Source of the DNA: Georgenia satyanarayanai
Lineage (GTDB): Bacteria > Actinomycetota > Actinomycetes > Actinomycetales > Actinomycetaceae
NCBI RefSeq assembly: GCF_900116375.1
Contig: NZ_UETB01000002.1
Span: 186,001-250,000, forward strand
Length of the DNA stretch: 64,000 nucleotides
Reading direction: 5' to 3'
The notes beneath the pieces were generated by a model. That model did no database searches, was not told the origin of the DNA, and was given only the letters and a program-made list of their open reading frames with translations. Below are positions 33,335-60,251 of the stretch, piece after piece. The translations under genes and the position numbers were made by a program. Numbering within the stretch: position 1 is the first letter of the stretch; every line of letters begins with the position of its first letter.

Positions 33335-33351
33335 GTGCGCTTCCTGCGCAC
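33335..33351 (-). promoter_or_regulatory. GGA-loop hairpin at predicted 5' end of cheA mRNA
   Basis: GTGCGC-AGGAA-GCGCAC starts 7 bases after the -10, so it is the first thing transcribed. The 5-base loop carries GGA, the CsrA core. A further ACACGGATG and the GGAGGT ribosome site follow. The same 17-mer precedes the mcp4 gene exactly and the mcp3 gene with one loop change. Confidence 0.6.
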
Positions 33352-33358
33352 TCCCTCT

Positions 33359-33386
33359 CCATCGGTGCCCACGCGGCGTTTGTGAG
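33359..33386 (-). promoter_or_regulatory. Sigma-28-type promoter of the cheA operon
   Basis: CTCA (33383-33386), 16 bases, then ACCGATGG (33359-33366) on the minus strand, matching the flagellar sigma pattern TAAA-N15/16-GCCGATAA in its -10. It lies 55 bases before the cheA start. Confidence 0.8.
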
Positions 33387-33401
33387 ACGTCGGCGTGAAA
33401 T

Positions 33402-33440
33402 GCCACGGGCGGGCCCGCCGGTGGCGGGCCCGCCCGTGGC
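33402..33440 (-). terminator. mcp3 terminator hairpin
   Basis: An 18-base perfect stem, GCCACGGGCGGGCCCGCC with its complement, around a 3-base loop, starting 12 bases past the mcp3 stop and ahead of the cheA promoter. Confidence 0.85.
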
Positions 33441-33451
33441 GGAGGGGTGAC

Positions 33452-35062
33452 TCAGACGCGGAACTGGGACACCTGGGCGCGCAGGCCCTCGGAGATGCTC
33501 GCGAGCTCCGCGACAGCGGTGCTCATCTGCGTCATCGTGCCGCTGTTGTCGGCCGCGGCGGACGCGATGCCGGTGATGTTGCCCGCGATCTCGGTGGACC
33601 CGGTCGCGGCCTCGGTCACGCTGCGGGACATCTCGTTGGTCGTCGCGGTCTGCTCCTCGACGGCCGAGGCGATCGTCATCTGGTAGTCGTTGATCTGGCC
33701 GATGATCTCGGTGATCTCCCCGATGGCGCCGACGGCTCCTTCGGTGTCGTGCTGGATCGCCTCGATACGGCGGGCGATGTCGTCGGTGGCCTTGGCCGTC
33801 TCCTGGGCCAGCTCCTTGACCTCCCCGGCGACGACGGCGAAGCCCTTGCCCGCCTCACCGGCCCGCGCGGCCTCGATGGTCGCGTTGAGCGCGAGCAGGT
33901 TCGTCTGCTCGGCGATGGTCGTGATGACCTTGACGACGTTGCCGATCTCGATCGACGAGGCGCCCAGCTTCTGCACCGTCTCGTTCGTCACCGCGGCCTG
34001 GGTGGTGGCCCGGGCGGCCACGGCGGCCGCCTCGCTGGAGCTCTGGGCGATCTCGCGGATCGAGGCGCCCATCTGCTCCGCACCGGCCGCCACGGTGTGG
34101 ACGTTCTGGCTGACCTGCTCGGCAGCGGAGGCGACGACGCCGGACTGGGCAGAGGTCTCCTCGGACGCGGCGACCACCTGCGTGGTCGACGCCGCCAGCT
34201 CCTCGGCGCCGGAGGCGATGGTCACGGCGGCCTCGTTGACCGCGCCGACGGTGCCGCGCAGCTGGCGCATCGAGCGGGCGAGGTGCTCGGCCATCTGGCC
34301 GAGCTCGTCGCGGGTGCGCACCTGGGGCTCGGCGGTGAGGTCGCCGTTGCCGAGCGCCTCGACCGCGGCGCGGACCGTCTCGACGGTCCGCATGATCTGG
34401 CGGATGACGCCGAGGGCGACGGCGATGCCGAGGGCCAGCCCGACAAGGAGGACGACGACGAGGAGCGTCTGGGTGGTCGCCGCGCGCGCGTCTGCGGCCC
34501 TCTGGTCCGCGGCGGCGCGCTCGACCTGGTCGTCGGCCGCGGCGGCCATCAGGTTCGCCGTGTCCGCTCCGACGACCTCGAGCGTCTCGTTGTAGTACGC
34601 GTTCATGGCGGCGGGATCACCCGTCCGCACGACGTCGGCCCACGGTCCGCCGACCTCGTCGTGAAATGCCTGCACTCCGGCGATCATGGCGTCGAGGTCA
34701 CCCCGGTCCTCGAAGAAGTGACCGTAGGCCTCCAGGGACCCGATGGCCTCCGCCTCACGCTCGGCGATCTCGACGAGCTGGGCCTCCAACTCGTTGTCAT
34801 CCCGCAGAGGGAGCGCGTTGACCCGCACCCGCGTGCCCTGGAAGGTCGCTCGAGCATCGGACAGGTGGTTGAGCGGCTCCACCCGCTGCTCGTACATCTC
34901 GGTCTGTGCCGTGGCCAGGTTGCGCACCTGGGCGATACCGAGAACCCCGATGACGAGGGCGACGAGGGCGACGACGCCCACGGCAGCAGCGATCTTCACG
35001 CGGACGGAGGCGTCCCGGAGGGAGCGGCGGCTCGTGGCGGGGGCGAGGGATTCTGTGGACAT
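33452..35062 (-). CDS. Methyl-accepting chemotaxis protein (mcp3)
   Basis: The 536-residue receptor has TM1 (about residues 24-46), a helical sensor with [18 protein letters not shown] typical of four-helix-bundle sensors, TM2 (about 193-215), HAMP and the standard signalling tip. ATG 35062 is preceded by AAGGAAG. It stands alone between hairpins with its own sigma-28-type promoter. Bases 33807-33937 in the tip are identical to mcp2. Confidence 0.93.
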
Positions 35063-35160
35063 CGGTCTTCCTTGTGGGTCCGTGGCCGTCCTGCAGGGGG
35101 CACCGGCGGTCCGTGGGCTCGGCCCACGGCGCCGGGCAGTCGCGGTGACGCGGGACGGCC

Positions 35161-35177
35161 GTGCGCATCCTGCGCAC
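35161..35177 (-). promoter_or_regulatory. GGA-loop hairpin at predicted 5' end of mcp3 mRNA
   Basis: GTGCGC-AGGAT-GCGCAC begins 7 bases after the -10. The loop AGGAT contains the CsrA core GGA followed by U, closer to the known CsrA consensus than the cheA copy. Confidence 0.6.
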
Positions 35178-35184
35178 ACCCCAC

Positions 35185-35212
35185 CCGTCGGCAGGGGCGC
35201 CGCCGTTGTGAG
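35185..35212 (-). promoter_or_regulatory. Sigma-28-type promoter of mcp3
   Basis: CTCA (35209-35212), 16 bases, GCCGACGG (35185-35192) on the minus strand. The -35 sits in the stem of the hairpin that ends the mcp4 transcript. Confidence 0.78.
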
Positions 35213-35235
35213 ACGTCCGTCCCGAGGAACGTCTC
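35210..35235 (-). terminator. Hairpin downstream of mcp4
   Basis: GAGACGT pairs with ACGTCTC around a 12-base loop, just after the mcp4 stop. It is a modest stem and overlaps the mcp3 -35. Confidence 0.4.
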
Positions 35236-35239
35236 CGGC

Positions 35240-36898
35240 TCAGTGCGTGAACTGCGCGACGCGGGCCTGCAGGTCGGCTGACATCCGGGCGAGCTCGTCG
35301 GCCGCTCCGTTGAGCTGGCCGAGGACCTCGGTCGTCGTCACCGCGGCGGTGGCCACCCCCGTGATGCTCGTCGCGATCTCCCCGGAGCCCGTCGCGGCCT
35401 CAGTCACGCTGCGCGCCATCTCGTTGGTCGTCGCCGTCTGCTCCTCCACCGCCGAGGCGATGGTGAGCTGGTAGTCGTTGATCTGTCCGACGATGCGCGA
35501 GATGTCCTCGATCGCGTCCACCGCGCCGGCGGTGTCGACCTGGATCGCGGCCACCCGCCGGGCGATGTCCTCGGTGGCCCTGGCCGTCTCCTGAGCGAGG
35601 TCCTTGACCTCCCCGGCCACCACCGCGAAGCCCTTGCCGGCCTCGCCGGCGCGCGCGGCCTCGATCGTGGCGTTGAGCGCCAGCAGGTTGGTCTGCTCGG
35701 CGATCGAGGTGATGACCTTGACGACGTCCCCGATCTCCTGGGAGCTCACTCCCAGCTTGGCCACCGTCTCGTTCGTGGCCGCCGCCACCCCGGTCGCCTG
35801 GTGGGCGACCCGGGCCGCGTCGTTCGAGCTCTGCGCGATCTCCCGGATGGAGGCTCCCATCTGCTCGGCCCCAGCCGCGACCGTCTGCACGTTGCTCGAC
35901 ACCTGCCCGGCGGCGGCTGCCACCACACCTGCCTGGGTCGAGGTCTCCTCCGAGGTCGAGCCGAGCTGGCTCCCGCCGGCCGACAGCTCCTCAGCGGCCG
36001 CTGCCACCGCCTGCGCCGTCCCGGAGACCTCACCGACGAGCGCCCGGAGGTTCGACTGTGCGGTGTCCAGTGCCTGCGCCATCTGACCGACCTCGTCGGC
36101 GCTGTCGACCCCCGCGCGCACGGTCAGGTCCCCGGCCGCCATCGCCTGGAGCGCCGTGTGCATCCGGCCCACGGGGCGGGTCACCGAGCGTTGGGTGAGC
36201 CAGCTGATACCGAGGACGAGGGCCAGACCGACAACTGCGACGGCGAGGCTGACGGACCGTGCCGTCACCATCGCGTCGGAGAGGTCCTCCCCCGCGGCGG
36301 CCGTGTCGGCCGCGGCCCCGTCGGCTACGGCCGCCACGGCGTCGTCGGTCAGGGCGTTGGCCGCCTGGATCTCCTCCCAGCGTGATGCCGTGCCCGCCGA
36401 GTCGGCGATGGCGTCGTCGATGAACGCCGCCGTCGTCGCGAGGTACTCGCGGAAGGCGGTCTCCAGGTCCCTCACCTCCGCCGCACGCGCCCCCTCGAGC
36501 GGCAGAGCCGTCAGCCGACCGAGGAGCTCCTCGACCGTGGCGGTGTCCTCCTCGAGCGCGACGACCTGCTCCTCGGGGTCGTCACGAACCAGCACCATGT
36601 AGGCGCTGACCTTGAGCTCGCTGGCGCGGGTGTCGAGCAGCAGCACGCTCTCCTGGATGCGTTCCTCGAGGGCCACCCGGGCGCTGGCGCGCTCGACGCT
36701 GGCGTTGCCGACGACCGTCGCGGTGAGGAGCCCGCCGAGGGAGAGGACGACCACCCCGACGAGCACGGCGAACTTGGTGCCGATGCGTGTGTCGGCGAAG
36801 CGGCGACGCCGCCGTGGCGTCGGCGCCGCGGGCACCGAGGGGTGACGGGAGGCGTGCTCGTGGGGAGTGCTCGAGCGTTCGGCAGCCAACGCGACCAT
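35240..36898 (-). CDS. Methyl-accepting chemotaxis protein (mcp4)
   Basis: The 552-residue receptor has a basic cytoplasmic leader ([12 protein letters not shown]), TM1 (about residues 43-64), a helical sensor, TM2 (about 218-238), HAMP and the standard tip. Its tip protein sequence matches mcp1-3 but uses different synonymous codons, so it has not shared their DNA exchange. It has its own sigma-28-type promoter 163 bases upstream. Confidence 0.93.
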
Positions 36899-37034
36899 GC
36901 GGGTGTCCTTGCGTCCGGGCGGCCCGGCACCACCGAGAACCCGTCAGGAAGCCGTCGGCGACCTCACCGACCCGGTCCGGCCATCGTCGACCAGTGCCCG
37001 TCCTGACGATCTCGCCGGTGCCACGCAGCGCTTC

Positions 37035-37051
37035 GTGCGCTTCCTGCGCAC
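37035..37051 (-). promoter_or_regulatory. GGA-loop hairpin at predicted 5' end of mcp4 mRNA
   Basis: GTGCGC-AGGAA-GCGCAC, identical to the cheA leader, starts 9 bases after the -10. The remaining leader to the mcp4 start is about 135 bases and holds nothing else recognised. Confidence 0.6.
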
Positions 37052-37060
37052 ACCCAAGAA

Positions 37061-37088
37061 CCTTCGGCAGGACACGCCCGGTGTTGAG
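37061..37088 (-). promoter_or_regulatory. Sigma-28-type promoter of mcp4
   Basis: CTCA (37085-37088), 16 bases, GCCGAAGG (37061-37068) on the minus strand. It lies between csrA and mcp4. Confidence 0.75.
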
Positions 37089-37135
37089 CGGTTGCCGGCA
37101 ACCTCACTCGGCTCGGCCGACGGGCAGCCTGGCGC

Positions 37136-37375
37136 TCAGCCCTCGGTCGTGGGCGGGCGCAGGGAACGGAGTGCATCGAGGTCCTCGTCGCCTGCGCGGG
37201 CCGCGTCGCGGTTGGCCTCCTCGACGGCGCGGAGCACCTCGGCCCGGTTGACCGTCACGTGCCGCGGGGCGGCGATGCCCAGCCGGACCGTGTCGCCGCG
37301 CACATCGACGACGGTGAGGACGATGTCCTCGCCGATGACGATCTGCTCGCCGACCTTGCGGCTCAGTACCAGCAC
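37136..37375 (-). CDS. csrA: Carbon storage regulator CsrA
   Basis: CsrA dimers bind GGA motifs in mRNA leaders, often in hairpin loops, and in Bacillus repress flagellin translation until FliW removes them. The 79-residue protein begins VLVLSRKVGEQIVIGEDIVLTVVDVRGDTVRLGI and keeps the RNA-contact Arg in HVTVNRAEV. The extended C-terminus resembles the FliW-binding type rather than the short E. coli form. GTG 37375 follows the flhF-like gene by 10 bases, at the end of the fliM operon. Confidence 0.93.
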   Translation of the reverse strand: MLVLSRKVGEQIVIGEDIVLTVVDVRGDTVRLGIAAPRHVTVNRAEVLRAVEEANRDAARAGDEDLDALRSLRPPTTEG

Positions 37376-37385
37376 GCGCTCGACC

Positions 37386-37727
37386 TTACCGTCCGCGCTG
37401 GCTCTTGGCCGACCTGGCGCCCGCCGCGCGTGCCGCCCTGCTGGCCTCCGACTCCATCCGCTCGGCCGCCTCGGCGGCGCCGAGCAGGTCGCCGATGCCC
37501 GCGGGAGGTGCCACCGGCCGCGCCGGCGCGGGTGCCCGACGGGCCGCCAGCCGGGTGGGCGGGGCGACCTGCGGGTCGGGCACCGCCACGGTCACCTCGT
37601 ACCACTGGCGCATGAGCAGGCCCTTGCGCAGCCGTTGGGCGCGCACCACCCGGCCGCCGAGCTGCCCCGCGCGCGCGAGGAGCTCGGTCAGGTCGGGACC
37701 GTCAAGCAGCAATCGCCTGTCCGACAC
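37386..37727 (-). CDS. Small protein resembling the N-terminal domain of FlhF
   Basis: The 113-residue protein opens LLLDGPDLTELLARAGQLGGRVVRAQRLRKGLLMRQWYEVTVAV, resembling the N-terminal domain of FlhF, but there is no GTPase. The rest is Ala/Pro/Arg-rich. GTG 37727 overlaps the end of flhA by 26 bases with GGGAG upstream. Its place after flhA, where flhF usually lies, supports the idea; similarity is short, so the call is tentative. Confidence 0.5.
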   Translation of the reverse strand: MSDRRLLLDGPDLTELLARAGQLGGRVVRAQRLRKGLLMRQWYEVTVAVPDPQVAPPTRLAARRAPAPARPVAPPAGIGDLLGAAEAAERMESEASRAARAAGARSAKSQRGR

Positions 37728-39759
37728 CCACGGCTCCCACGGTCTCGATGGTCAGCGACGTGCCCGTCACCTCGGTGTAGGACAGCACGGGAAGGCGCGG
37801 GACCGCCAGTCCCGCCACCCGGCGCAGCGCCGGGCGGATCGCCGGCGAGCACACGAGGACCGCCTGGCGGCCGGTCGCCTCGAGCGTCTCCACCTGGGCA
37901 CGGAGCGAGGCCAGCAGGCCCTCGACCCGGTCCGGCGCGAGCGAGATCTGCGTGCCGCCCTCCCCCGGCCGCAGGGACTCCAGGAGCAGCTGCTCGGTGG
38001 CCGGCTCGAGGGTGAGGACGCGCAGCACGCCGCCCTCGCGCTGCCGGTCGACGATGACGTCCGCGACCGCCTGGCGCGCCGCCTCGACGAGTCCCTCCGC
38101 GTCGGTGGAGACCTTCGCCCGCAGGGTGAGCGCCTCGAGGATGCGGCCCAGGTCGAGGATCGGCACCTGCTCGGCGAGCAGCCCCTGGAGGACCCGCTGC
38201 ACCTCACCGAGGCTGAGCACGGCGGGAACAAGCTCCTCGACCACCGAGGGGTTGGTCTGCTTGAGCCCCTCGACGAGCACCCGCACGTCCTCGCGGCCGA
38301 GCAGCCGGTCGGCGTGGGTGGAGGCCACCGAGGAGAGGTGGGTGATGAGGACGGACACGCGGTCGACCACCGTAGCCCCGGCCATCTCGGCGCTGTGCCG
38401 CAGCTCGGTGGGGATCCACTTGCCGGGCAGGCCGAAGACCGGTTCGACGACGGTGCTGCCGGGCAGCCCCTCGAGGCCCTCGCCGAGGGCGAGGACGCGC
38501 CCGCGCGGTGCCGTGCCGCGCGCGACCTCGACTCCGGAGAGCCGGATGGCGTAGGTGCCGGCGGGCAGGTCGACCGAGTCCCGGGTGCGCACCGGGGGCA
38601 GCACGTACCCCATCTCCAGGGCGGTCTTGCGGCGCAGCGCCCGGACCCGCCCGAGCAGGTCCTGGTCGGCCGACCCGCCGACCATGTCGACGAGGTCGGG
38701 GGCGAGCAGCACCTCGAGCGCGTGGACGCGCATCTGCTCGATGAGCGCCTCGGGCGTCTCCGCAACGGGCTGCAGCGCCGCGGCGGTCTCGGTGGCGGTC
38801 TCGGCGTCGGCGACCTCCGTCTCCTTGGCCTTGATCCGCTGGGCGAGGAGGAGCAGGGCCGCACCGACGAGGATGAAGGGGATCTTGGGGATGCCGGGCA
38901 CGAGCGCGAGGACCACGGCAGCGCCCCCGGCGATCATCAGGGCCGTGCGCGACTGGGCGAGCTGGGAGGTGGCCATCGTGCCCATGTCGGAGTCCGACGT
39001 CGCCCGCGTGACGACCAGGCCGGTGGCCACCGACATGAGGAGGGCGGGGATCTGGGTGACGAGGCCGTCACCGACGGTGAGGAGGGAGTAGGTCTCGATG
39101 GCCTCGCCGGCGCTCATGCCGAGCTGGACCATGCCGATGACGAACCCGCCGACGAGGTTGATGACCGTGGTGATGATGCCGGCGATCGCGTCGCCCTTGA
39201 CGAACTTCGCGGAGCCGTCCATCGCGCCGTAGAAGTCGGCCTCGGAGGCCACCTCCGCGCGGCGGCGGCGGGCCTCGTCGTCGTCGATGGCGCCGGCGTT
39301 GAGGTCGGCGTCGATAGCCATCTGCTTGCCGGGCATGGCGTCGAGGGTGAACCGTGCCCCGACCTCCGCCGCGCGCCCGGCGCCGTTGGTGATGACGACG
39401 AACTGGATGACGACGAGGATGAGGAAGATGACCAGGCCGATGACGATCGAGCCGCCGACGATGATGTGCCCGAAGGCGTTGATGACCTCACCCGCGTAGC
39501 CGTCACGCAGCACGAGGCGGGTGGAGGCGACGTTGAGTCCGAGCCGGAACAGCGTCATGACGAGCACGAGCGCCGGGAAGATCGAGAAGTCGAGGGACTT
39601 CTTGATGTACATCGTCGTGAGCAGCACGAGCATCGCGCCCATGATGTTGACCGCGATGAGGAGGTCGAGCAGCGGCGCCGGCAGCGGGATGACGAGCAGC
39701 ATGATGATCCCGACGACGGCGGCCGGGGCGGCGAACTGGGTGACCTTGCCGTTCTTCAT
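37702..39759 (-). CDS. flhA: Flagellar type III export protein FlhA
   Basis: FlhA forms the export gate ring and docks substrates and chaperones. The 685-residue protein has about eight N-terminal membrane segments (residues 1-310), the conserved FRLGLNVASTRLVL, GRAAEVGARFTLDAMPGKQMAIDADLNAGAI and later cytoplasmic domains. ATG 39759 follows AAGGACAGCCG and overlaps flhB as ATGA; the open frame upstream is inside flhB. Confidence 0.96.
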   Translation of the reverse strand: MKNGKVTQFAAPAAVVGIIMLLVIPLPAPLLDLLIAVNIMGAMLVLLTTMYIKKSLDFSIFPALVLVMTLFRLGLNVASTRLVLRDGYAGEVINAFGHIIVGGSIVIGLVIFLILVVIQFVVITNGAGRAAEVGARFTLDAMPGKQMAIDADLNAGAIDDDEARRRRAEVASEADFYGAMDGSAKFVKGDAIAGIITTVINLVGGFVIGMVQLGMSAGEAIETYSLLTVGDGLVTQIPALLMSVATGLVVTRATSDSDMGTMATSQLAQSRTALMIAGGAAVVLALVPGIPKIPFILVGAALLLLAQRIKAKETEVADAETATETAAALQPVAETPEALIEQMRVHALEVLLAPDLVDMVGGSADQDLLGRVRALRRKTALEMGYVLPPVRTRDSVDLPAGTYAIRLSGVEVARGTAPRGRVLALGEGLEGLPGSTVVEPVFGLPGKWIPTELRHSAEMAGATVVDRVSVLITHLSSVASTHADRLLGREDVRVLVEGLKQTNPSVVEELVPAVLSLGEVQRVLQGLLAEQVPILDLGRILEALTLRAKVSTDAEGLVEAARQAVADVIVDRQREGGVLRVLTLEPATEQLLLESLRPGEGGTQISLAPDRVEGLLASLRAQVETLEATGRQAVLVCSPAIRPALRRVAGLAVPRLPVLSYTEVTGTSLTIETVGAVGVGQAIAA

Positions 39760-41602: not shown

Positions 41603-41605
41603 GCC

Positions 41606-44676: not shown

Positions 44677-44684
44677 GTATGTCC

Positions 44685-44712
44685 CCATCGGCGGCGCCCA
44701 GCCGATGTTGAG
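44685..44712 (-). promoter_or_regulatory. Sigma-28-type promoter of the fliM operon
   Basis: CTCA (44709-44712), 16 bases, GCCGATGG (44685-44692) on the minus strand. It follows the fliL terminator at once and covers the first possible fliM ATG. Unlike other sites here it has no GGA hairpin; the transcript would be leaderless. Confidence 0.75.
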
Positions 44713-44720
44713 GAGTCACC

Positions 44721-44749
44721 GCGCGCCCGGCGTCAGCCGCCGGGCGCGC
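44721..44749 (-). terminator. fliL terminator hairpin
   Basis: GCGCGCCCGGCG pairs perfectly with CGCCGGGCGCGC around TCAGC, 7 bases past the fliL stop. It separates flbD-motA-motB-fliL from fliM. Confidence 0.8.
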
Positions 44750-45244: not shown

Positions 45245-45245
45245 G

Positions 45246-47127: not shown

Positions 47128-47152
47128 GGGTCGGTTCCATCCTGGTTACTTC

Positions 47153-47170
47153 GGGCCCATCCATGAGCCC
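47153..47170 (-). promoter_or_regulatory. GGA-loop hairpin in flbD-motA leader
   Basis: GGGCTC-ATGGAT-GGGCCC folds with six pairs, one G-U, and a loop holding GGA. It begins 10 bases after the -10. A second GGA, in CCAGGATGG, lies just before the GTG start. Confidence 0.55.
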
Positions 47171-47180: not shown

Positions 47181-47208
47181 CTATCGGCCACCGGGCCCGG
47201 ACCTTGAG
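47181..47208 (-). promoter_or_regulatory. Sigma-28-type promoter of flbD-motA-motB-fliL
   Basis: CTCA (47205-47208), 16 bases, GCCGATAG (47181-47188) on the minus strand, the closest of the nine to the enterobacterial -10. The -35 lies in the loop of the flgE terminator. Confidence 0.82.
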
Positions 47209-48914: not shown

Positions 48915-48925
48915 GGTCGTGCTCC

Positions 48926-52633: not shown

Positions 52634-53253
52634 TCCGTGACCTCCAGGGCGTCGCGGACGCGGGAGACAGCGGCACCGACGCGCGCGTCGAGGTAGCCCT
52701 CCTCGAGCTCGCTCACCGCGTCCCCGCGCCCGAGGGCGGGGTCCGCGACGAGCTCGACGCCGGCGGGGAGGCCCAGCTCGGCCGGGAGGGAGTCGAGGGT
52801 CGCCGTGAGGTGGGCGAGGTCCTCGGGGTTGAGGCGGACGCGGACCAGGCCTTCGTCGCGCACCGACAGCGCGCGGCGCAGCGCGGACCGCGCGGAGGCG
52901 TCGCCGTCGCCGAGCTCGGCACCCAGCACGGTCTCGGCGAGGTCGACGGCAGCGCGGGTCAGCGCACCCTGGGCCTCGCTGAGGACGGGGGCGGCGCGGT
53001 GGCGGGCGGCCTCGGCTGCCCGGGCCAGCACGCTCAGTGCCTCCTGGGCCGCGGTCGCGGCCTGCTGGGCGCGGACGGCCAGCTCCTCGGCGGCACGGCG
53101 GCGCTGCTCCTCGGCGTCCTGGGCGGCGGCCCGGGCACCGGCGGACCAGCCGGCGGTGTACCCGCTGGAGTAGCCGGCCGCCACGGACGCCGCCTCGGGC
53201 CGGGAGGCGTGGAGCGGGGTGAACACGGGACCCTGGGTGACCTCAAGAGACAT
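52630..53253 (-). CDS. fliH: Flagellar export regulator FliH
   Basis: FliH holds and restrains FliI. The 207-residue protein has a Gly/Ala-rich N-terminal helix (GYSSGYTAGWSAGARAAAQDAEEQ), a coiled coil and the C-terminal VRVRLNPEDLAHL and VELVADPALGRGDAV. ATG 53253 overlaps the end of fliG by 11 bases. Confidence 0.9.
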   Translation of the reverse strand: MSLEVTQGPVFTPLHASRPEAASVAAGYSSGYTAGWSAGARAAAQDAEEQRRRAAEELAVRAQQAATAAQEALSVLARAAEAARHRAAPVLSEAQGALTRAAVDLAETVLGAELGDGDASARSALRRALSVRDEGLVRVRLNPEDLAHLTATLDSLPAELGLPAGVELVADPALGRGDAVSELEEGYLDARVGAAVSRVRDALEVTE

Positions 53254-54250
53254 ACTCGTCCTCCGCGTCCCGGCGCACGACGATCTGGCCGGACTCCTCG
53301 AGCGTGCGGATGACCTTGACGATGGCGCCGCGGGCGTCGTGGACCTCCGAGACGCGCACCGCACCGGCGATCTCCATCTCGTCGACGAGGTCCAGGCGGG
53401 CGCGCTCGGAGAGGTTGCGCTTGATCTTCTCGGTGAGCTCCGCGGAGGTGCCCTTGAGCGCGAGCGCGAGACCGCTCGTGTCGGTCTGGCGCAGGACGAG
53501 CTGGACGGCGCGGTCGTCGAGGTGGATGACGTCCTCGAAGGTGAACATGAGGCTGCGGACCTGCTCGGCGAGGGCCTCGTCGCGCTGGCCGAGCTCCTCG
53601 AGGATCTGCTTCTCGGTGCTCGGGTCGGCGCGGTTGAGGATCTCGACGAGGGGCTGGATGCCGCCCACCGCCGTCGTCGGCTCACCGGCGGTCAGCACGT
53701 GGCCGGCGCGCCGCTGGAGGCTGTCGGCGATGGTCATCACGGCGTCCGGGCTCGCCTGCTCCATCGTGCCGATGCGCATCGCGACGTCGGCACGCTCGGC
53801 CGGCGGGAGGCCGGCCATGATGGCCGAGGCCCGCTCGGGGCGCAGGTGGGCGAGGACCACGGCCATGGTCTGGGGGTGCTCGCCGTTGATGAGGGACAGG
53901 ACCTGACGGGGCTCGGCCTGCTGGAGGAAGTCGAAGGGCTGGCCGGCCAGCAGGGTGGTGAGCCGACCCATGACGAGGCTGGCGCGCTCGGCGCCGAGGG
54001 AGTCCTCGAGGAGGCGCTGGGCGTACTCGAGGCCCCCGTGGCCGGCGACGGGCGCGCCGCCGTTGGCCTGGTCGTAGAACTCGACGAGGACCTGGTCGGC
54101 GATGGCGGAGGGCACCGTCTCCATCCGCGCGATCTCGGCGGAGATCTCCTCGACCTCCTGCTCCTCGAGCAGGGCGAGCACCTTGGTGGCGCGCTCGTGG
54201 CCGAGCTGGAGCAGCACGACGGCGGCCTTCTGCGGGCTGGTGAGGTTCAC
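53243..54250 (-). CDS. fliG: Flagellar motor switch protein FliG
   Basis: FliG transmits torque between stator and rotor. The 335-residue protein has the family parts LTSPQKAAVVLLQLG, HPQTMAVVLAHLRPERASAIM and FTFEDVIHLDDRAVQLVLRQTD. GTG 54250 overlaps the fliF stop as GTGA; a frame from 54268 has no ribosome site. Confidence 0.96.
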   Translation of the reverse strand: MNLTSPQKAAVVLLQLGHERATKVLALLEEQEVEEISAEIARMETVPSAIADQVLVEFYDQANGGAPVAGHGGLEYAQRLLEDSLGAERASLVMGRLTTLLAGQPFDFLQQAEPRQVLSLINGEHPQTMAVVLAHLRPERASAIMAGLPPAERADVAMRIGTMEQASPDAVMTIADSLQRRAGHVLTAGEPTTAVGGIQPLVEILNRADPSTEKQILEELGQRDEALAEQVRSLMFTFEDVIHLDDRAVQLVLRQTDTSGLALALKGTSAELTEKIKRNLSERARLDLVDEMEIAGAVRVSEVHDARGAIVKVIRTLEESGQIVVRRDAEDEYVS

Positions 54251-55806
54251 TGCTTGACCGCCATCCACTGGCGCAGCCGGTCGGCGACCGCGCTCGGGTC
54301 CTCGTCGGCCATGGCGACGACGCCCAGGCGGGCTGCCTCGGTGGCGTCGGGCTCGATGGCGCGCACCTCCGGGGCGGGCTCGAGGAAGCTGGTGTCCGGC
54401 TCGAGGGGCTCGGGCTCGGGCAGCTGGCTGACCTCGAGCTCGCCGAGGTCGATGTCCTCACGGTCCCGACCGCGTCGTGCGCGGCGCAGGACGGCGAGGA
54501 GGACGACGAGGAGGACGACGGCGATGATCCCGCCGCGGATGAGGGCGTCGCGCTGGGCCGCGGCAGCGGCAGCGGCCTCGGCGTCCGCCTGGGCGTCGAG
54601 CGCCTGCTGGGCGGCGTCGGCCGTCGAGGTGTCGAAGGCCATCTGCGCGACGGCCACCTGGTCACCACGCGCCACGTCGACGCCCGCCGCCACGGCGACG
54701 ATGTCCTCGAGCTCCTCGACGGTGATGCCGGCGGCGGCGACGGAGTCGACGACGACGGACACGGACTGGCGGGTGACACCACCGGGGTTGACGGTCGTCA
54801 GCTCGGTGACCTTGTTGACGGCGTTGTTCGTCGTCGCGTCCTCGCGGGTGTAGGTGCCGGCCTCCCCACCGTTGGGCACGGCGATGTTGTCCGGGCCGAG
54901 CACGCCGCCGACGGCCTGGCCGCCGCCCTCGTACTCCTCGGTGCTGCGGGACTCGCTCAGCGGCGGGGTGCCGTCCGCGGGAGTGAAGGTCTCGCTCGTG
55001 CGCTGGGTCTGGTCGCGGCCGAGCTCGGCGTTGACCGACACGACGGCGTTGCCGGCGCCGACCACCCGGTTGAGCATGGTCTGCACCTGTCCGGCGACGC
55101 GTTCCTCGTACTCGGTGGCGCCGTCGGGCCCGCCACCGCCCGGGGAGGCGGTGAGGACGGCGCCCTCGGCGTCGATGACCGACACGTTGAGCGGGTCCAT
55201 TCCCGCGACGGCGGAGGAGACGAGGTTGACGACCGCCTGCACGGAGCCGGAGTCGATCGTCTTGCCCGTCTCCGCCTGGACGAAGACGGAGGCGGTGGGC
55301 TCGGGGGCGGTCTCGGTGAAGACGCTCTCCTCGGGCAGGGCGAGGTGGACCGTCGCGGTGGACACGCCGTCGAGCGCGCGCACCGTCTTGGCGAGCTCGC
55401 CCTCGAGGGCGCGCTGGTAGCTGACCTGCTGCTGGAAGTCCGAGCTCGTCATGCCCATGTCGTCGAGGAGGCTGTAACCACCCTCCTCGGTGGGCAGCCC
55501 CTCGGCGGCGAGCGCGATGCGCTGGTCGTAGACCGACTCGGCGGGCACGAGGACCGTGGCGCCGCCGTCGGTGAGCTCGTAGGTGACGCCGGCGGCCGTG
55601 AGCTGGTCGACGACGGCGGAGGCGTCCTCGCCGGAGAGGCCGCTGAACAGCGGGCTCATCGTCGGCCGGTTGGCCCACGACGTGGCGACGACGATGCCCA
55701 GGACGAGGGCGGCGATCCCGATGAGGGCGAGCGTCTTCTGGGGGAGGCTGAACTCCCCCACCCGCTCCTTCAGGCGCGCGAACGCGCCGGTGACGGCGGC
55801 GGGCAT
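54247..55806 (-). CDS. fliF: Flagellar MS-ring protein FliF
   Basis: FliF forms the MS ring that houses the export gate. The 519-residue protein has TM1 (about residues 26-46), the YscJ-like domains (LPTEEGGYSLLDD, YQRALEGELAKTVRALDGVSTATVHLALPE), TM2 (about 430-450) and the cytoplasmic tail for FliG (DPSAVADRLRQWMA). Confidence 0.96.
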   Translation of the reverse strand: MPAAVTGAFARLKERVGEFSLPQKTLALIGIAALVLGIVVATSWANRPTMSPLFSGLSGEDASAVVDQLTAAGVTYELTDGGATVLVPAESVYDQRIALAAEGLPTEEGGYSLLDDMGMTSSDFQQQVSYQRALEGELAKTVRALDGVSTATVHLALPEESVFTETAPEPTASVFVQAETGKTIDSGSVQAVVNLVSSAVAGMDPLNVSVIDAEGAVLTASPGGGGPDGATEYEERVAGQVQTMLNRVVGAGNAVVSVNAELGRDQTQRTSETFTPADGTPPLSESRSTEEYEGGGQAVGGVLGPDNIAVPNGGEAGTYTREDATTNNAVNKVTELTTVNPGGVTRQSVSVVVDSVAAAGITVEELEDIVAVAAGVDVARGDQVAVAQMAFDTSTADAAQQALDAQADAEAAAAAAAQRDALIRGGIIAVVLLVVLLAVLRRARRGRDREDIDLGELEVSQLPEPEPLEPDTSFLEPAPEVRAIEPDATEAARLGVVAMADEDPSAVADRLRQWMAVKQ

Positions 55807-56117
55807 CAGGCCTGCATCCGCATGATCTCGTTGAACGCGTCGACAGCCTTGTTGCGCAGCGCGACGGTGAGCTCCAGGGCGACCGCGGCCTCGGTGGCGG
55901 CGATCGTGTAGTCGTGGACGTCCTCGAGGTCACCGGTGACGGCCTTGAGCGCGAGGTCGGAGGAGACCTCCTGCTTCTGGCTGACGCCGTCGATGGCCGA
56001 GGCGAGCGCAGAGCCGAAGGCGCTGCCGTCGCTCGCGGCCGGGTCGACGGCCTCGAGGCCGTCGAGGTAGCCGGTGGGCGCGACGCTGGTGAGGGCTTCG
56101 ATCGCGGGGACGGACAT
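55806..56117 (-). CDS. fliE: Flagellar hook-basal body protein FliE
   Basis: FliE joins the MS ring to the rod. The 103-residue protein has KQEVSSDLALKAVTGDLEDVHDYTIAATEAAVALELTVALRNKAVDAFNEIMRMQ, the complete FliE core. It overlaps its neighbours by one base each (TGATG). Confidence 0.95.
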   Translation of the reverse strand: MSVPAIEALTSVAPTGYLDGLEAVDPAASDGSAFGSALASAIDGVSQKQEVSSDLALKAVTGDLEDVHDYTIAATEAAVALELTVALRNKAVDAFNEIMRMQA

Positions 56118-56515
56118 CAGTTTTTCCCGATCTGAAGTGCGGACTGGTAGCTCTCCCGGGCTCGGTCCACGACCGCCGCGCTGGCCTGGTAGCCGCGCTG
56201 GGCCATGATGAGCTGGGTCATCTGGCTGGACATGTCGACGTCGGGGTAGCGCACGTACCCCTCCTCGTCGGCGAGGGGGTGGTCGGGCTCGTGGACCATG
56301 CGGCCCTCGGCGTTGCCGAGCTCGATGCCGGCCACCTGCGCGCCGGCGGGCTCGCCGTAGCTCATCGCGGTGGCGACGACGTAGCGGGCCTGGAAGGCGG
56401 CGCCGTCGGTCGGGCTGGCGTTGTTGGCGTTGGCGAGGTTGTCGCTGACGGCGTCCAGCCACTTGCGGTGGACGGTCATGCCGGTCGAGGCGATGCCGAT
56501 GGCGTCGAAGGTCAT
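56117..56515 (-). CDS. flgC: Flagellar rod protein FlgC
   Basis: FlgC is a proximal rod protein. The 132-residue length fits; IASTGMTVHRKWLDAVSDNLANANN and YPDVDMSSQMTQLIMAQRGYQASAAVVDRARESYQSAL are the paired terminal helices. Confidence 0.96.
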   Translation of the reverse strand: MTFDAIGIASTGMTVHRKWLDAVSDNLANANNASPTDGAAFQARYVVATAMSYGEPAGAQVAGIELGNAEGRMVHEPDHPLADEEGYVRYPDVDMSSQMTQLIMAQRGYQASAAVVDRARESYQSALQIGKN

Positions 56516-56859
56516 CAGGCGCTCCTGAGTGCGGTACGGATGGCGGTGAACCCGCCGTCGATGGAGCGGGTCGCCACCTGGTAGCGCAGGTTCGCGTCGA
56601 TGTTCGCCAGCGTCTCGGTGTCGAGGTTGACGTTGTTGCCGTTCTCGCGCGTCGGCTCGAGGGAGCGGTCGACGCTCGCCTCGACGCCGGCGTCGCGGCC
56701 GGTACGGACCGCGTTGGCGAGGGCGTCCTCGAACTGCACCCGCCCGGCGAGGAAGCCGGGGGTGTTGACGTTGGCGATGTTGTCGGCGATGACTCGCTGG
56801 CGCAGCGAGAGCGCGTCGAGGGCGCTCTTCATCGCCACGGAGGTCACTGAATCGAACAC
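56515..56859 (-). CDS. flgB: Flagellar rod protein FlgB
   Basis: FlgB is a proximal rod protein. It has 114 residues with LRQRVIADNIANVNTPGFLAGRVQFEDAL and the C-terminal NIDANLRYQVATRSIDGGF. GTG 56859 is preceded by AAGGGG. It heads the largest flagellar operon, about 75 bases from the sigma-28-type promoter start point. Confidence 0.95.
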   Translation of the reverse strand: MFDSVTSVAMKSALDALSLRQRVIADNIANVNTPGFLAGRVQFEDALANAVRTGRDAGVEASVDRSLEPTRENGNNVNLDTETLANIDANLRYQVATRSIDGGFTAIRTALRSA

Positions 56860-56895
56860 GTGGGTCTAACCCCTTAGTGAAACTGCGGTACGTGC

Positions 56896-56910
56896 GGCCG
56901 ATCCGTGGCC
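56896..56910 (-). promoter_or_regulatory. Second GGA-loop hairpin in flgB leader
   Basis: GGCC-ACGGATC-GGCC, a 4-pair stem with a loop holding ACGGAT, lies 4 bases after the first flgB hairpin. Two sites suit a CsrA dimer. Confidence 0.5.
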
Positions 56911-56914
56911 TGGT

Positions 56915-56935
56915 GGCGAGCTATCCGTGCTCACC
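56915..56935 (-). promoter_or_regulatory. First GGA-loop hairpin in flgB leader
   Basis: GGTGAGC-ACGGATA-GCTCGCC forms seven pairs with one G-U. The loop ACGGATA has the GGA core. It starts 6 bases after the -10, at the predicted mRNA 5' end. Confidence 0.6.
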
Positions 56936-56941
56936 CATCCC

Positions 56942-56969
56942 TGATCGGCAGCCGTCGGGGACGTGTGAG
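56942..56969 (-). promoter_or_regulatory. Sigma-28-type promoter of the flgB operon
   Basis: CTCA (56966-56969), 16 bases, GCCGATCA (56942-56949) on the minus strand, about 83 bases before the flgB start. Confidence 0.82.
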
Positions 56970-57118
56970 GGATTGATGGGGAGTTCTCCCCATTGAGCGC
57001 GACCGGACTCTCTGGCTGACTGGGCACGCCCCCGGACGCCGACGGCCGGTGCCTCCCGCTGCCCCCGGGACACCGGCGGTCGGCGCTCCTGTCGTGCCCG
57101 CCCGCGGGCATGCCAGAA

Positions 57119-57166
57119 CACCGTGTGTCTTTCGGGTCCTATGAGAACCCGAAAAGACACACGGTG
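57119..57166 (-). terminator. Strong hairpin ending the fliD-fliS unit
   Basis: CACCGTGTGTCTTTCGGGT pairs with its complement (one extra A) around CCTATGAGA, 16 bases past the last stop. The next promoter, of flgB, starts 150 bases further on. Confidence 0.88.
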
Positions 57167-57181
57167 CTTGTCGGACGCTGG

Positions 57182-57508
57182 TCAGCCGGCGGCGTCGAGG
57201 TAGACCGGGCGGCGGGGCCCGCCGGCCCTGAGCACCTCGGTGAGCCGCGCCTGGCGTCGGCTGAGGACGAGCGCCTCGCTCAGCCGCTGGGCAACCTCCG
57301 CCTGACGCTCGAGGAGCAGCTCGGCACGCGCGCGCAGCGGCTCGGGCAGCGGCCCGAGGTCGGACGGCGGGGTCCAGGGCGAGGCGGGCCGGGCGACGTG
57401 GTCCCCCGCGAGCATCGCCTCGGTCTCGGCGACGTCGAGCTCGAGCTCGGTGAGCGCGGCCTCCCAGCGGGCACGGAAGGCGTCCGGCGCCACGGCGGTG
57501 ACGTCCAT
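57182..57508 (-). CDS. FliT-like flagellar protein
   Basis: The 108-residue helical protein (RARWEAALTELELDVAETEAMLAGD, RAELLLERQAEVAQRLSEALVLSRRQARL) follows fliS by a one-base overlap. This is where FliT-type chaperones for FliD lie. Sequence alone does not prove it, so this is a position-based call. Confidence 0.5.
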   Translation of the reverse strand: MDVTAVAPDAFRARWEAALTELELDVAETEAMLAGDHVARPASPWTPPSDLGPLPEPLRARAELLLERQAEVAQRLSEALVLSRRQARLTEVLRAGGPRRPVYLDAAG

Positions 57509-57912
57509 CAGCCGACGGCGACGGCGGCGGCGGTGGCGGTACCGGGCATGGCAGCAGCCTGGTGCCAGGCGTCGCGGAGAGGGACGATGAGCGCGCGGCA
57601 GGCGGTGACCTTGGCGGCGTCGTGCGCGACGTTGGCGGTGACGAGCTCCGCGTAGAGGTAGTTGTAGATCTCCAGGAGCTGCGGACCTCCGTCCCAGGCG
57701 TCGACGTCCAGGCTGCAGCGCAGCTCGTGGATGATCTGCTGGGCGTGCCCGAGCTGCTCGTTGACTGCGGCGCGATCGCCGGACTCGAGGGCGACGACAG
57801 CTCGGTCGAGGTCGAGGAGCAGCCGGTCGTAGAGCATCGTGAGAAGCTGCGCCGGGGACGCGGTGGACAGCGACTCTCGGCGGAACTTGGCGAGCAGGGC
57901 AGCCTGGTTCAT
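57508..57912 (-). CDS. fliS: Flagellin export chaperone FliS
   Basis: FliS binds flagellin before export and, in Bacillus, frees FliW to act on CsrA. The 134-residue protein has STASPAQLLTMLYDRLLLDLDRAVVAL and LRCSLDVDAWDGGPQLLEIYNYLYAELVTANVA. It lies 9 bases from fliD. Confidence 0.94.
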   Translation of the reverse strand: MNQAALLAKFRRESLSTASPAQLLTMLYDRLLLDLDRAVVALESGDRAAVNEQLGHAQQIIHELRCSLDVDAWDGGPQLLEIYNYLYAELVTANVAHDAAKVTACRALIVPLRDAWHQAAAMPGTATAAAVAVG

Positions 57913-57921
57913 CGATGTCTC

Positions 57922-59268
57922 CTACTGCTTGCTGGCGTTGAGGCCGGCGATCTGGTTGGTCAGCCAGCTCTGCGTGGAGTTGAGCTGCGAGAGCCGGACC
58001 TCCATCGAGCTGAACTGCGCGACGAGCTGCGCGCGCCGGGCGCTGAGCCGCTCGTCCCACTTGGCGATCTGGGTCCCCAGGTCCCGGACGACTGACTCCT
58101 GGGAGGTGATCTTCCCGGTGAGGGAGCCCTCGGTCTTGTCGGACGCGCGTTCCGCCACCTCGCCCACCCGCGTCGCGAGGGCCTGGATCGTCTCCATCGT
58201 CGCCTTGGGGTCCTCCGCCATCGCCTTGTCGAAGGTCACCTTGTCGAGAGTGACCGCGCCGTAGCGGTCCATGGTGATGCCGACCGCGGCCGGGGACCGC
58301 CCGTTCACCGGGTTGGTCATCGCCGCCTGGATGTCGTTGGTGAGGAAGCGGATGGCGGAGTCACCGGAGAACAGGCCGCCGGTGACGACGGTGTTGCCGG
58401 AGCTGTCGGTCTCCGTCGTCGTGCGCGTGCGGGAGGCGATCTCGGACAGCACGACGGACACGTTGGCGACGAGCTCGTCGGCGAGCTTGCGCTGGGCGTC
58501 GGCGTCGGTCGTGACGGTGATCGTCACGGGGTCCGAGGACACCGTGCTGACGGTGAGGTCGACGCCCTCGAGGACGTCGGTGAAGGTGTTGGTCGCGCTG
58601 CTCAGCTCATAGCTGCCGGACGAGCCCGGCCACATCGCGATCGTGGCGTCCTTGGCCGTGGCGATGGCGTTGTCGGCCGAGGCGAGGGCCGGTACGGACG
58701 TGTCGGTGCCGGCGTGCACGGTGAAGCTGTTGGCCTCACCGGTCTTCCCGGTGAGCTGCAGGCTGTAGGTGGGGCTGGAGTCGGTCCCGCCGGTACGGAC
58801 CCGCGTCGCAGTGATGCCGGTCTTGTCGGCCAGCGCGTTGATCGCGGCGGCGACGTCTTCCGGGTTCGGCGAGGACGGCGTGATGTCGTAGGTCTGTCCA
58901 CCGGTGCCGAGCGTGAAGACCGCCTGGAGCTTCGTGGGGTCGAGGAGCGAGACCTGGCCGGAGGCGAGCTGGGTGACCTCGAGTGCGACGGTGCCGGCCC
59001 TGGCGGACTCGGAGCCGGCGACGGTGACGGTGTCGGACGACGACGAGGCCTTGGTGACCGCCCAGGACGCGGGATCCGCGACCTTGGTGGCTGCCGTGGC
59101 GAGGGAGGCCACCCTGCTGTTGAGCCCCTGGAGGGCCTGGACCAGCGTGGAGGCGACCGTCGACTTGTTCTTGAGCAGGACCTGCTGGTTCGCCTGGATC
59201 TTGACCAGACCGTCGATGATGGCGGTCGTGTCCAGACCGCTGGCCATGCCGTCGATGCCGATCGTCAT
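57922..59268 (-). CDS. fliD: Flagellar filament cap FliD
   Basis: FliD caps the filament for flagellin folding. The 448-residue protein begins IGIDGMASGLDTTAIIDGLVKIQ, with repeated beta domains and the C-terminal coiled coil (RLSQLNSTQSWLTNQIAGLN). No own promoter was found, so read-through from fliC is likely. Confidence 0.95.
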   Translation of the reverse strand: MTIGIDGMASGLDTTAIIDGLVKIQANQQVLLKNKSTVASTLVQALQGLNSRVASLATAATKVADPASWAVTKASSSSDTVTVAGSESARAGTVALEVTQLASGQVSLLDPTKLQAVFTLGTGGQTYDITPSSPNPEDVAAAINALADKTGITATRVRTGGTDSSPTYSLQLTGKTGEANSFTVHAGTDTSVPALASADNAIATAKDATIAMWPGSSGSYELSSATNTFTDVLEGVDLTVSTVSSDPVTITVTTDADAQRKLADELVANVSVVLSEIASRTRTTTETDSSGNTVVTGGLFSGDSAIRFLTNDIQAAMTNPVNGRSPAAVGITMDRYGAVTLDKVTFDKAMAEDPKATMETIQALATRVGEVAERASDKTEGSLTGKITSQESVVRDLGTQIAKWDERLSARRAQLVAQFSSMEVRLSQLNSTQSWLTNQIAGLNASKQ

Positions 59269-59304
59269 CCGGCGACCTCCCGTGCGTGTGTGGTGGGCAT
59301 GCGG

Positions 59305-59338
59305 CCGGCGGCCCGCCCAGGAGTGAGCGGGCCGCCGG
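59305..59338 (-). terminator. Hairpin between fliC and fliD
   Basis: CCGGCGGCCCGC pairs perfectly with GCGGGCCGCCGG around a 10-base loop, 39 bases past the fliC stop. It may partly stop transcription so that flagellin exceeds cap protein. Confidence 0.75.
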
Positions 59339-59376
59339 TCAGTCGTGCAGTGCTACCGGGCCAGGCCCGGCGGCGG

Positions 59377-60195
59377 TCAGCGCAGCAGCGAGAGGATCGA
59401 CTGCGGCATCTGGTTGGCCTGAGCCAGCATGGAGGTGCCGGCCTGCTGGAGGATGTTCGCGCTGGTGTAGCTGACCATCTCGTTGGCCATGTCGGTGTCG
59501 CGGATACGGGACTCCGACGCGGTGAGGTTCTCGACCGAGACCTGCAGGTTGTTGATGGTGTGGTCGAGGCGGTTCTGCTTCGCACCGAGCTCGGCACGGA
59601 CCTTGGAGACCGTGTCGATGGCGGTGTCGAGCGTCGTGATGGCGGTGCTGGCGTTCGTCACGACGTCGAGGGCGTCCACGCCGAGGCCCGTGGAGCTCAT
59701 CGCGGTGGCGATGTTCACGGTGATGACCTCGCCGGCGTTGGCGCCGACCTGGAACGTCTGGTCGGTGTAGGTGCCGTCGAGCAGGGCGCGACCGTTGAAC
59801 TGGGTCTGCGAGGCGATGTCGTCCAGACCAGCGGCGAGCTCGTCGACCTCCGCCTGGATGTTGGTCTTGGCGGTGTCACTGAGCGCACCGGTGTTGGACG
59901 CCTGGACGGACAGGTCACGCATCCGCTGGAGGATGGCGTGCGTCTCGGTGAGCGCACCCTCAGCGGTCTGGACGACGGAGATGCCGTCCTGAGCGTTGCG
60001 GACGGCGACGTTGAGGCCACCGATCTGGGAGCGCAGGCCCTCCGAGATCGCCAGGCCCGCGGCGTCGTCGGCCGCGCGGTTGATGCGGAAGCCGCTGCTC
60101 AGCTTCTCGAGGGAGGAGCTGAGGTCGTTCTGCGTGTTCGCCAGGTTGCGGTACGAGTTCATCGCGGCGACGTTGTTCTGCACGGAGAGTGCCAT
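59377..60195 (-). CDS. fliC: Flagellin FliC
   Basis: FliC is the filament subunit. The 272-residue protein has only the D0/D1 helices: MALSVQNNVAAMNSYRNLANTQNDLSSSLEKLSSGFRINRAADDAAGLAISE and the C-terminal NEMVSYTSANILQQAGTSMLAQANQMPQSILSLLR, with a short middle. ATG 60195 follows AAGAGGAACAACC. It has a sigma-28-type promoter and a GGA hairpin leader. Confidence 0.97.
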   Translation of the reverse strand: MALSVQNNVAAMNSYRNLANTQNDLSSSLEKLSSGFRINRAADDAAGLAISEGLRSQIGGLNVAVRNAQDGISVVQTAEGALTETHAILQRMRDLSVQASNTGALSDTAKTNIQAEVDELAAGLDDIASQTQFNGRALLDGTYTDQTFQVGANAGEVITVNIATAMSSTGLGVDALDVVTNASTAITTLDTAIDTVSKVRAELGAKQNRLDHTINNLQVSVENLTASESRIRDTDMANEMVSYTSANILQQAGTSMLAQANQMPQSILSLLR

Positions 60196-60229
60196 GGTTG
60201 TTCCTCTTCTTCCTGAAGTGTGGTGTCTC

Positions 60230-60251
60230 GATCGCCCTTCCATGGGCGATC
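60230..60251 (-). promoter_or_regulatory. GGA-loop hairpin at 5' end of flagellin mRNA
   Basis: GATCGCCC and GGGCGATC form eight perfect pairs around ATGGAA, with GGA in the loop, 8 bases after the -10. Two more GGA triplets lie just before the start, one of them in the ribosome site (AGAGGAAC). This mirrors the two CsrA sites of Bacillus hag. Confidence 0.68.

Follow-up and report, generated by a model that had tools for sequence, protein, structure and literature searches.

The window analysed here, 64,000 nucleotides (nt) of Georgenia satyanarayanai (contig NZ_UETB01000002.1, positions 186,001 to 250,000, forward strand), holds a flagellar and chemotaxis cluster, and the question it raises is whether the messenger RNAs (mRNAs) of this cluster begin with binding sites for the protein CsrA. 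In six minus-strand leaders, those of cheA, two receptor genes (mcp), flbD-motA, flgB and fliC, a hairpin of 6–9 base pairs (bp) with GGA in a loop of 5–7 nt begins 8–12 nt past a sigma-28-type site of the form TCAN-N15-NCCGAN. The original prediction had described six such hairpins just after the -10 elements and proposed them as a candidate CsrA regulon; all six were found where it had placed them. From their sequences and those of relatives, the hairpins are very probably sites where CsrA binds the 5' ends of mRNAs of the sigma-28 type, with a mechanism as proposed below. The pattern would be best explained by a CsrA regulon that spans the lineage, covers late flagellar and chemotaxis mRNAs and leaves out the operon encoding the CsrA antagonist FliW.

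Hairpins and promoters of the six leaders

The fliC leader carries the hairpin TGATCGCCC[ATGGAA]GGGCGATCG with an outer U-G pair (60229..60252) behind a sigma-28-like promoter at 60262..60286 (score 7.7). The flbD-motA leader carries GGGCTC[ATGGAT]GGGCCC with one G-U pair (47153..47170) behind a promoter at 47183..47207 (score 8.9). Both loops are hexaloops of the ANGGAX type. Further GGA follow in the ribosome-binding regions: two in the purine-rich region of fliC (60202..60213), 28 and 37 nt past the first GGA and ahead of the ATG at 60195, and two in that of flbD (47136..47142), 20 and 24 nt past the first. The second GGA of cheA is likewise within or next to the ribosome-binding region. 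The flgB leader, with its promoter at 56944..56968 (score 8.4), contains two hairpins. The first, GGTGAGC[ACGGATA]GCTCGCC (56915..56935), has a 7-nt loop and one G-U pair, and the second, GGCC[ACGGATC]GGCC (56896..56910), presents its GGA 22 nt past the first. Both form when the 30- and 45-nt prefixes of this leader are folded.

The remaining three leaders have pentaloops. The cheA hairpin GTGCGC[AGGAA]GCGCAC (33335..33351) follows a promoter TCAC-N15-ACCGAT at 33361..33385 (score 7.7) and is found at the same place in the relatives G002 and G004. The first receptor has GTGCGC[AGGAT]GCGCAC (35161..35177), a promoter at 35187..35211 and a start codon near 35062, and its hairpin is also present in G002 and G004. 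The second receptor has GTGCGC[AGGAA]GCGCAC (37035..37051), a promoter at 37063..37087 (score 8.2) and a start codon at 36898. All three hairpins combine the stem GTGCGC/GCGCAC with an AGGAA or AGGAT loop, and so do not count as independent cases. The claim that stems differ in sequence while pairing is kept holds across relatives for fliC, flbD and flgB, and has to be narrowed for cheA and the two receptors, which are of a single stem and loop type.

The sigma-28 promoter consensus was taken to be TCAA/TAAA-N15-GCCGAT. At a score of at least 7.7 the window contains 28 sigma-28-like sites, seven of which adjoin gene starts on the upstream side. Six of these seven, and none of the other 21, come with a GGA-loop hairpin whose stem has at least 6 bp, in a hand sort that included the six leaders already named and was not blind. 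Among 4000 random 45-mers from the window, 77 had a GGA-loop hairpin. The 17-mer GTGCGCAGGAHGCGCAC occurs in four exact copies in the genome of 3.9 megabases (Mb), three of them in the cheA and receptor leaders; the fourth has no such promoter just upstream, and no reading frame of more than 58 amino acids starts within the next 400 nt. A known RNA family was considered and rejected, there being no Rfam match at the gathering score in 26000–64000 and none near that score around flgB (56800–57000).

Conservation in relatives

The comparison was made with the flagellar stretches of 49 relatives and the window, from 13 families and mostly 40 kilobases (kb) long (20–60 kb). Orthologue leaders were extracted by tblastn, and a hairpin was counted when a stem of at least 6 bp lay in the 110 nt upstream of the start. 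GGA-loop hairpins were present in 29 of 48 fliC leaders (shuffle mean 1.8), 26 of 47 flgB leaders (2.6), 20 of 49 flbD leaders (3.1) and 7 of 11 cheA leaders (0.6), an excess over shuffles of about 6–16 times. GGA ranks first among the 64 loop trinucleotides in each of these four sets. Stretches upstream of control genes were at or below their shuffles (fliF 0/46, flgC 0/47, fliM 1/49, csrA 2/48), and a mild excess was seen for fliD (5/40 against 1.4) and directly upstream of motA (9/49 against 2.1). The reverse complement TCC occupies the same loops 4 times in fliC, once in flgB, never in flbD and once in cheA; since TCC is rare where GGA is common, the feature is strand-specific, which indicates RNA rather than DNA. 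Of the 50 genomes, 45 have the hairpin in one or more of these four leaders and 27 have it in two or more. By family, it is found at fliC in 10 of 12, flgB in 9 of 13, flbD in 7 of 13 and cheA in 3 of 4.

The pairing of the stems was assessed by an arm-swap test in which the choice of GGA depended on how far it lay from the -10 and on the letters around it, blind to the stem. Usable rows came to 28 of 48 fliC, 43 of 47 flgB, 44 of 49 flbD and 10 of 11 cheA leaders, the 20 missing fliC leaders having probably been lost to the start estimate and the promoter finder. The first GGA lay 15–24 nt past the -10 in 23 of 28 fliC, 39 of 43 flgB and 29 of 44 flbD rows. Out of six possible pairs, a leader's own arms formed 4.61 in fliC against 3.20 for swapped arms (standard deviation, sd, 0.19), 3.93 against 3.11 (sd 0.15) in flbD and 4.30 against 3.80 (sd 0.12) in flgB, and none of 5000 permutations reached the own-arm value in any of the three. 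Double-sided changes over all usable rows also exceeded shuffles (fliC 37 against 17.5, flbD 35 against 22.0, flgB 21 against 10.5).

Alignments gave a similar picture. For 25 flbD leaders with the GGA 17–24 nt past the -10, from which three near-copies were left out and in which weakly paired rows were included, 85.3% of cells pair (70.2% shuffled) with a covariation score of 0.404 (0.171 shuffled; slid versions at most 0.204). An alignment of 11 out of 30 fliC and flbD leaders, namely those with the GGA 20 nt from the -10 and with three near-copies removed, scored 0.605 against 0.231, a selection that favours clean cases. The flgB alignment held 31 of 35 leaders (47 in all, with eight genomes and other spacings left out) and scored 0.154 against 0.090 over both helices. 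RNAalifold, left free to fold, places the core of the flbD hairpin and those of the two flgB hairpins. The GGA served as the alignment anchor, so that its invariance there is by construction and was not counted as evidence. A compensatory change is seen within the genus for cheA, where GTGCGC/GCGCAC and GTGCAC/GTGCAC are exchanged (G004). In fliC, flbD and flgB the hairpin structure is more conserved than the letters, and the covarying stems around GGA that the original prediction suggested seeking in relatives were found, with the stems kept.

A second GGA accompanies the first in many leaders. The rows tested were those with the first GGA 14–24 nt past the -10, 39 of 43 for flgB and 29 of 44 for flbD. 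The second GGA lies 19–26 nt past the first in all 39 flgB leaders, and shuffles give 9.3 (sd 2.7) within 18–30 nt. It usually stands inside a short hairpin of its own, of the GGCC[ACGGATC]GGCC type, well upstream of the start (about 34–83 nt in the leaders checked by hand). For flbD, 26 of 29 leaders have a second GGA at 18–30 nt (9.4 expected, sd 2.4), near the ribosome-binding site, and for cheA the count is 8 of 10 against 4.5 (sd 1.7). The distance over which CsrA can bridge two GGA is given as 10–63 nt in the text available of PMC7652899.

A covariance model, with the promoter included, was built from the 11 fliC and flbD leaders. Its top two matches in the genome are flbD (63.1 bits) and fliC (58.3 bits), both training rows. 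The next, at 23.1 bits, is a receptor leader outside the training set, from the 150 of 9844 first-look candidates that were scored. The second receptor leader reaches 23.6 bits when scored directly and was absent from those 150. The cheA and flgB leaders (18.2 and 13.8 bits) would be inconspicuous in a scan of the whole genome. In 1.94 Mb of the relatives' stretches the model made 69 matches at an expectation value (E) of at most 0.01, 9 of which are training rows. By downstream gene these are fliC 34, flbD-motA 25, cheA 4, mcp 2, flgB 2, cheB 1 and fliD 1, so that 67 of the 69 precede fliC, flbD-motA, cheA, mcp or flgB; one of the 34 fliC matches (G002) precedes only a gene piece. A GGA loop on a stem of at least 4 bp is present in 64 of the 69. 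In whole-genome searches at E 0.01, matches were found in 32 of 40 flagellated genomes (25 of 33 when training-row genomes are excluded) and in 5 of 40 non-flagellated genomes, the best of these at E 0.003.

Fifteen places were read where the model matched beyond the fetched stretches or at their edges. Three of them have a GGA hairpin ahead of a gene, which is a cheB at L237 and a different gene at each of L234 and L238. At L248 (a receptor) and L249 (a second cheB) the promoter is present but not the loop, and the rest held nothing convincing. The cheB of L237, in G247, lies outside the flagellar cluster; behind its sigma-28-like promoter comes a hairpin with an ACGGAA hexaloop (about 211–270). 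Two other cases in relatives may be mentioned here. In the flbD leader of G026 (L051, 503–582), two hairpins with ATGGAC hexaloops stand one after the other at a distance of 27 nt, as though a CsrA site had been duplicated. In G060 (L067, about 12200–16623) there are four flagellin matches; every one has a sigma-28-like promoter of its own and an ACGGAC loop, and the stems are of more than one sequence.

Marked and unmarked mRNAs and the proposed role of CsrA

The promoter type is not sufficient to bring the hairpin with it. On the plus strand, the flgN-flgK-flgL-fliW run, whose linkage was read in this genome, starts from the same type of promoter (63099..63123, within 63099–63173) and has no GGA hairpin. 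Among relatives, 37 flgN leaders were found, and the hairpin is present in 1 of the 29 with a promoter score of at least 7.4. A near-identical test gives 19 of 33 for fliC, 24 of 29 for flgB, 22 of 34 for flbD and 6 of 10 for cheA, or 71 of 106 pooled; the difference from flgN (Fisher p = 1.7e-10) is only indicative since the genomes are related. Sigma-28-like sequences near fliM, used as decoys, have the hairpin in 0 of 25 cases. The flgN and fliM counts speak against an element intrinsic to the promoter. The sequence at the window fliM (44687–44711, minus strand) overlaps the gene start, and 25 of 49 fliM leaders hold a site that scores at least 7.4, which may reflect either a promoter or conservation of the coding sequence.

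The genes that such a regulon would need are at hand. As the original prediction had stated, csrA is in the cluster, at 37220..37375 on the minus strand, with a GTG start at 37375, a Pfam match over 37220–37372 and a 3' end that is not fixed; fliW, which was sought in this genome only, lies 2.1 kb past the window end, so that both genes of a CsrA-FliW checkpoint are present. The window CsrA keeps the residues that align with L4 and R44 of known CsrA, both of which are taken here to contact RNA. For R44, such a role is also described in the text available of PMC7652899. A FliA/WhiG-family sigma factor gene (62101..62745, minus strand) matches at 167.7 bits, under the curated cut-off of 189.6, and together with the matching promoters it points to a sigma-28 regulon. 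By Pfam domains, from which the gene names were assigned, the minus strand of the window, 73% in GC content, also encodes cheA, cheW, four receptors, flhA, flhB, fliP, fliN, fliM, fliL, motB, flgE, flgD, fliK, fliJ, fliI, fliH, fliF, fliE, flgC, flgB, fliS, fliD and fliC; motA and flbD are present as well, and flgN is on the plus strand. The FliF encoded here is 93–95% identical to that in named records of G. satyanarayanai and Oceanitalea stevensii. Downstream of cheA on the minus strand come cheW and two receptor genes, likely in one operon with it. Among 396 genomes of the order, csrA was found in 102 and fliM in 104, with 100 in common, that is in 100 of the 106 genomes that have either. 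The four genomes with fliM only are assemblies of more than 500 contigs. Two genomes, G201 and G413, have csrA without a fliM match, and one of them is a near-complete two-contig assembly.

The loops may be considered in terms of the published site rules. In the nuclear magnetic resonance work on RsmE (PMC4005645, as available), the high-affinity site is an ANGGAX hexaloop on a stem, and sites that lack the N or have extra loop bases are weaker. Most fliC and flbD leaders resemble such RsmE/CsrA sites. The flgB loops, at 7 nt, differ by one extra base, and the 5-nt loops of cheA and the receptors lack the N, from which a graded affinity is predicted: by the RsmE rule fliC and flbD should be strong CsrA sites, flgB intermediate, and cheA and the receptors weaker. 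The proposal of a candidate CsrA regulon thus gains support from stem covariation, from loops that fit published CsrA rules and from the presence of csrA and fliW.

In the mechanism proposed, CsrA made from the same cluster would use both of its RNA pockets: one would bind the loop GGA of the 5' hairpin, and the other would take the second GGA some 20–30 nt downstream, where one is present. On fliC, flbD-motA and cheA this second GGA falls within the ribosome-binding site or adjoins it, so that translation should be blocked by the bound CsrA until FliW, itself presumably set free by flagellin export, removes it. The flgN-flgK-flgL-fliW mRNA, without a hairpin, would escape. As the second flgB site is a hairpin far upstream of the start, the effect on that mRNA may be on stability. 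Repression is likely for fliC, flbD and cheA, and either effect may apply to flgB and the receptors; this direction, the transcription starts, CsrA binding and FliW release are inferred.

The same sequences can be read in other ways. That CsrA binds as an activator which shields 5' ends from nucleases, rather than as a repressor, is unlikely overall and would apply at least to flgB, where two sites lie near the 5' end with the second some way from the start; E. coli flhDC offers a precedent (PMC7652899, in the text available). Such a role sits poorly with the window fliC, flbD and cheA leaders, where the second GGA has the position it has in the repressed hag and flaA. An improbable reading, in which CsrA is not involved, takes the hairpins for 5'-terminal elements that protect against 5'-end-dependent decay. 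They do stand at or just past the likely mRNA start and keep pairing while their letters change, yet a plain stabiliser needs no set loop, and GGA tops the 64 trinucleotides when leaders are chosen blind to it. The near-fixed second GGA of flgB and the absence of the hairpin at flgN would also be left unexplained. The position just downstream of the -10, with the first GGA at 15–24 nt in most leaders, could further suggest that the inverted repeats act at transcription, either as DNA operators or as a piece of the region that sigma-28 polymerase transcribes first. This is more improbable still, as operators keep their letters and here the letters change while complementarity stays, the loop is strand-specific in the GGA and TCC counts, and the same promoter type lacks the hairpin at flgN and the fliM decoys. 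Chance hairpins would be favoured by the GC-rich stems and composition of the window, but this explanation has next to no likelihood: it is contradicted by the shuffles, the random 45-mers, the other 63 trinucleotides, the control genes and the contrast between flagellated and non-flagellated genomes in the model search.

Several observations weigh against the CsrA regulon as interpreted here. Among leaders with a good promoter, 14 of 33 fliC, 5 of 29 flgB, 12 of 34 flbD and 4 of 10 cheA lack a stem of at least 5 bp, and 8, 2, 6 and 3 of these still lack a hairpin when a 4-bp stem is allowed. Arm-swap pairing was not significant for cheA (n = 10). The excess of second GGA in flbD is confounded, as Shine-Dalgarno sequences contain GGA anyway, and the fliC count, 6 of 9 long-enough leaders against 2.7, equals the shuffle maximum of 6. 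With paired GGA sites well upstream of the start, a ribosome occlusion like that of hag is not obvious for flgB. In longer windows the flbD leader and the second receptor leader (at 37 kb) favour competing folds; the flbD hairpin is present in the best fold of 26–60 nt prefixes, and that of the receptor only at 25 and 30 nt and not from 40 nt upward. Only two of the eight receptor genes of this genome have a hairpin of their own. Of the other six, two come after cheA and cheW, a third, on another contig, has a sigma-28-like promoter that lacks the GGA loop, and ahead of the last three no promoter marked by GGA was found. Receptor hairpins were seen in this genus (window, G002, G004), to which the look at receptors was confined. 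The co-occurrence of csrA and flagella is too tight to offer a flagellated control without csrA. A strong sigma-28-like promoter without a GGA loop also precedes a gene for a VanY-type D,D-carboxypeptidase (L158, 1501–2161; G000 contig C24, from 286672). This gene is far from the flagellar cluster, and its product is possibly a flagellum-linked wall hydrolase.

Families also differ at flbD, which weighs on the same side. With a 6-bp stem, the hairpin is found in 0 of 14 flbD leaders in families f5, f13 and f19 and in 0 of 7 in f14, f15 and f18, some of the latter holding stems of 4–5 bp. In f5, f13 and f19, fliC and flgB often keep the GGA hairpin that flbD lacks, and several flbD promoters (e.g. 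in G155, G185 and G235) are of the TAAC/TTAC-N15-GCCGAC type. The stator branch may have left the CsrA regulon in these three families, or may never have joined it.

A more far-reaching form of the CsrA regulon can be put forward tentatively, as a possibility that is more doubtful than the binding sites themselves. CsrA might be a dedicated late checkpoint over nearly the whole sigma-28 regulon in the flagellated actinobacteria of this order, with every regulated mRNA beginning in a promoter-fixed hairpin. The hexaloop (flagellin, stator), heptaloop (rod) and pentaloop (CheA, receptors) would grade CsrA affinity and so set the order of synthesis, and only the operon for the hook-filament junction, chaperone and FliW would be exempt, closing a feedback loop.

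If CsrA does act at these hairpins, one protein would control much of the swimming machinery together. Conservation alone names a target set for it in a phylum with just one flagellin prediction found, and one promoter class divides into CsrA-marked and unmarked mRNAs, with the operon of the antagonist FliW unmarked. This split is a testable design for the post-transcriptional ordering of flagellar and chemotaxis synthesis.

Comparison with known CsrA systems

In the literature found, CsrA control of flagella is described for Bacillus, Campylobacter, Clostridioides and gammaproteobacteria. The hag leader of B. subtilis has two CsrA sites, one of them at the Shine-Dalgarno sequence, and is governed by CsrA together with FliW (PMC7652899, PMC2587704, in the parts available). 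Georgenia is similar in having csrA, fliW and two predicted CsrA sites in the window flagellin leader. Unlike B. subtilis, where flagellin is the target described in those parts, the rod, stator, CheA and receptor leaders here carry predicted sites too.

Another likeness is found in C. jejuni, described in PMC4894983. The flaA leader there has two GGA in adjacent hexaloops of the CANGGANG type, 21 nt apart, and paired GGA hexaloops, compensatory changes, FliW and several flagellar targets are features of both systems. The phylum and the target set differ. A table of that study lists flgB at 1.6x and 0.7x and motA at 10.3x and 1.4x, in columns presumed to stand for the 5' untranslated region in two strains, and cheA does not appear in the main text as available. 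A promoter-fixed hairpin position and a hairpin-free fliW operon were found here; Campylobacter was not compared on either. The two predicted sites near the mRNA 5' end in the flgB leader recall the 5' end of E. coli flhDC, with the difference that flhDC is a master regulator and flgB a structural gene.

Among actinobacteria, Kineococcus radiotolerans was the subject of a 2008 prediction of a CsrA site at the flagellin Shine-Dalgarno sequence, with csrA in a motility island (PMC2587704, as available). The present case shares the phylum, the location of csrA and the flagellin mRNA as a target. That prediction concerns the Shine-Dalgarno site of one gene, and neither a 5' hairpin nor other genes are proposed in the text available. 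It was the only actinobacterial statement on CsrA and flagella found in the open-access literature, subscription papers aside and as far as the texts were available. The CsrA mechanism is already known; new in the open-access literature searched are the lineage and target set, a 5' position that is fixed to the promoter, and the exemption of the FliW operon.

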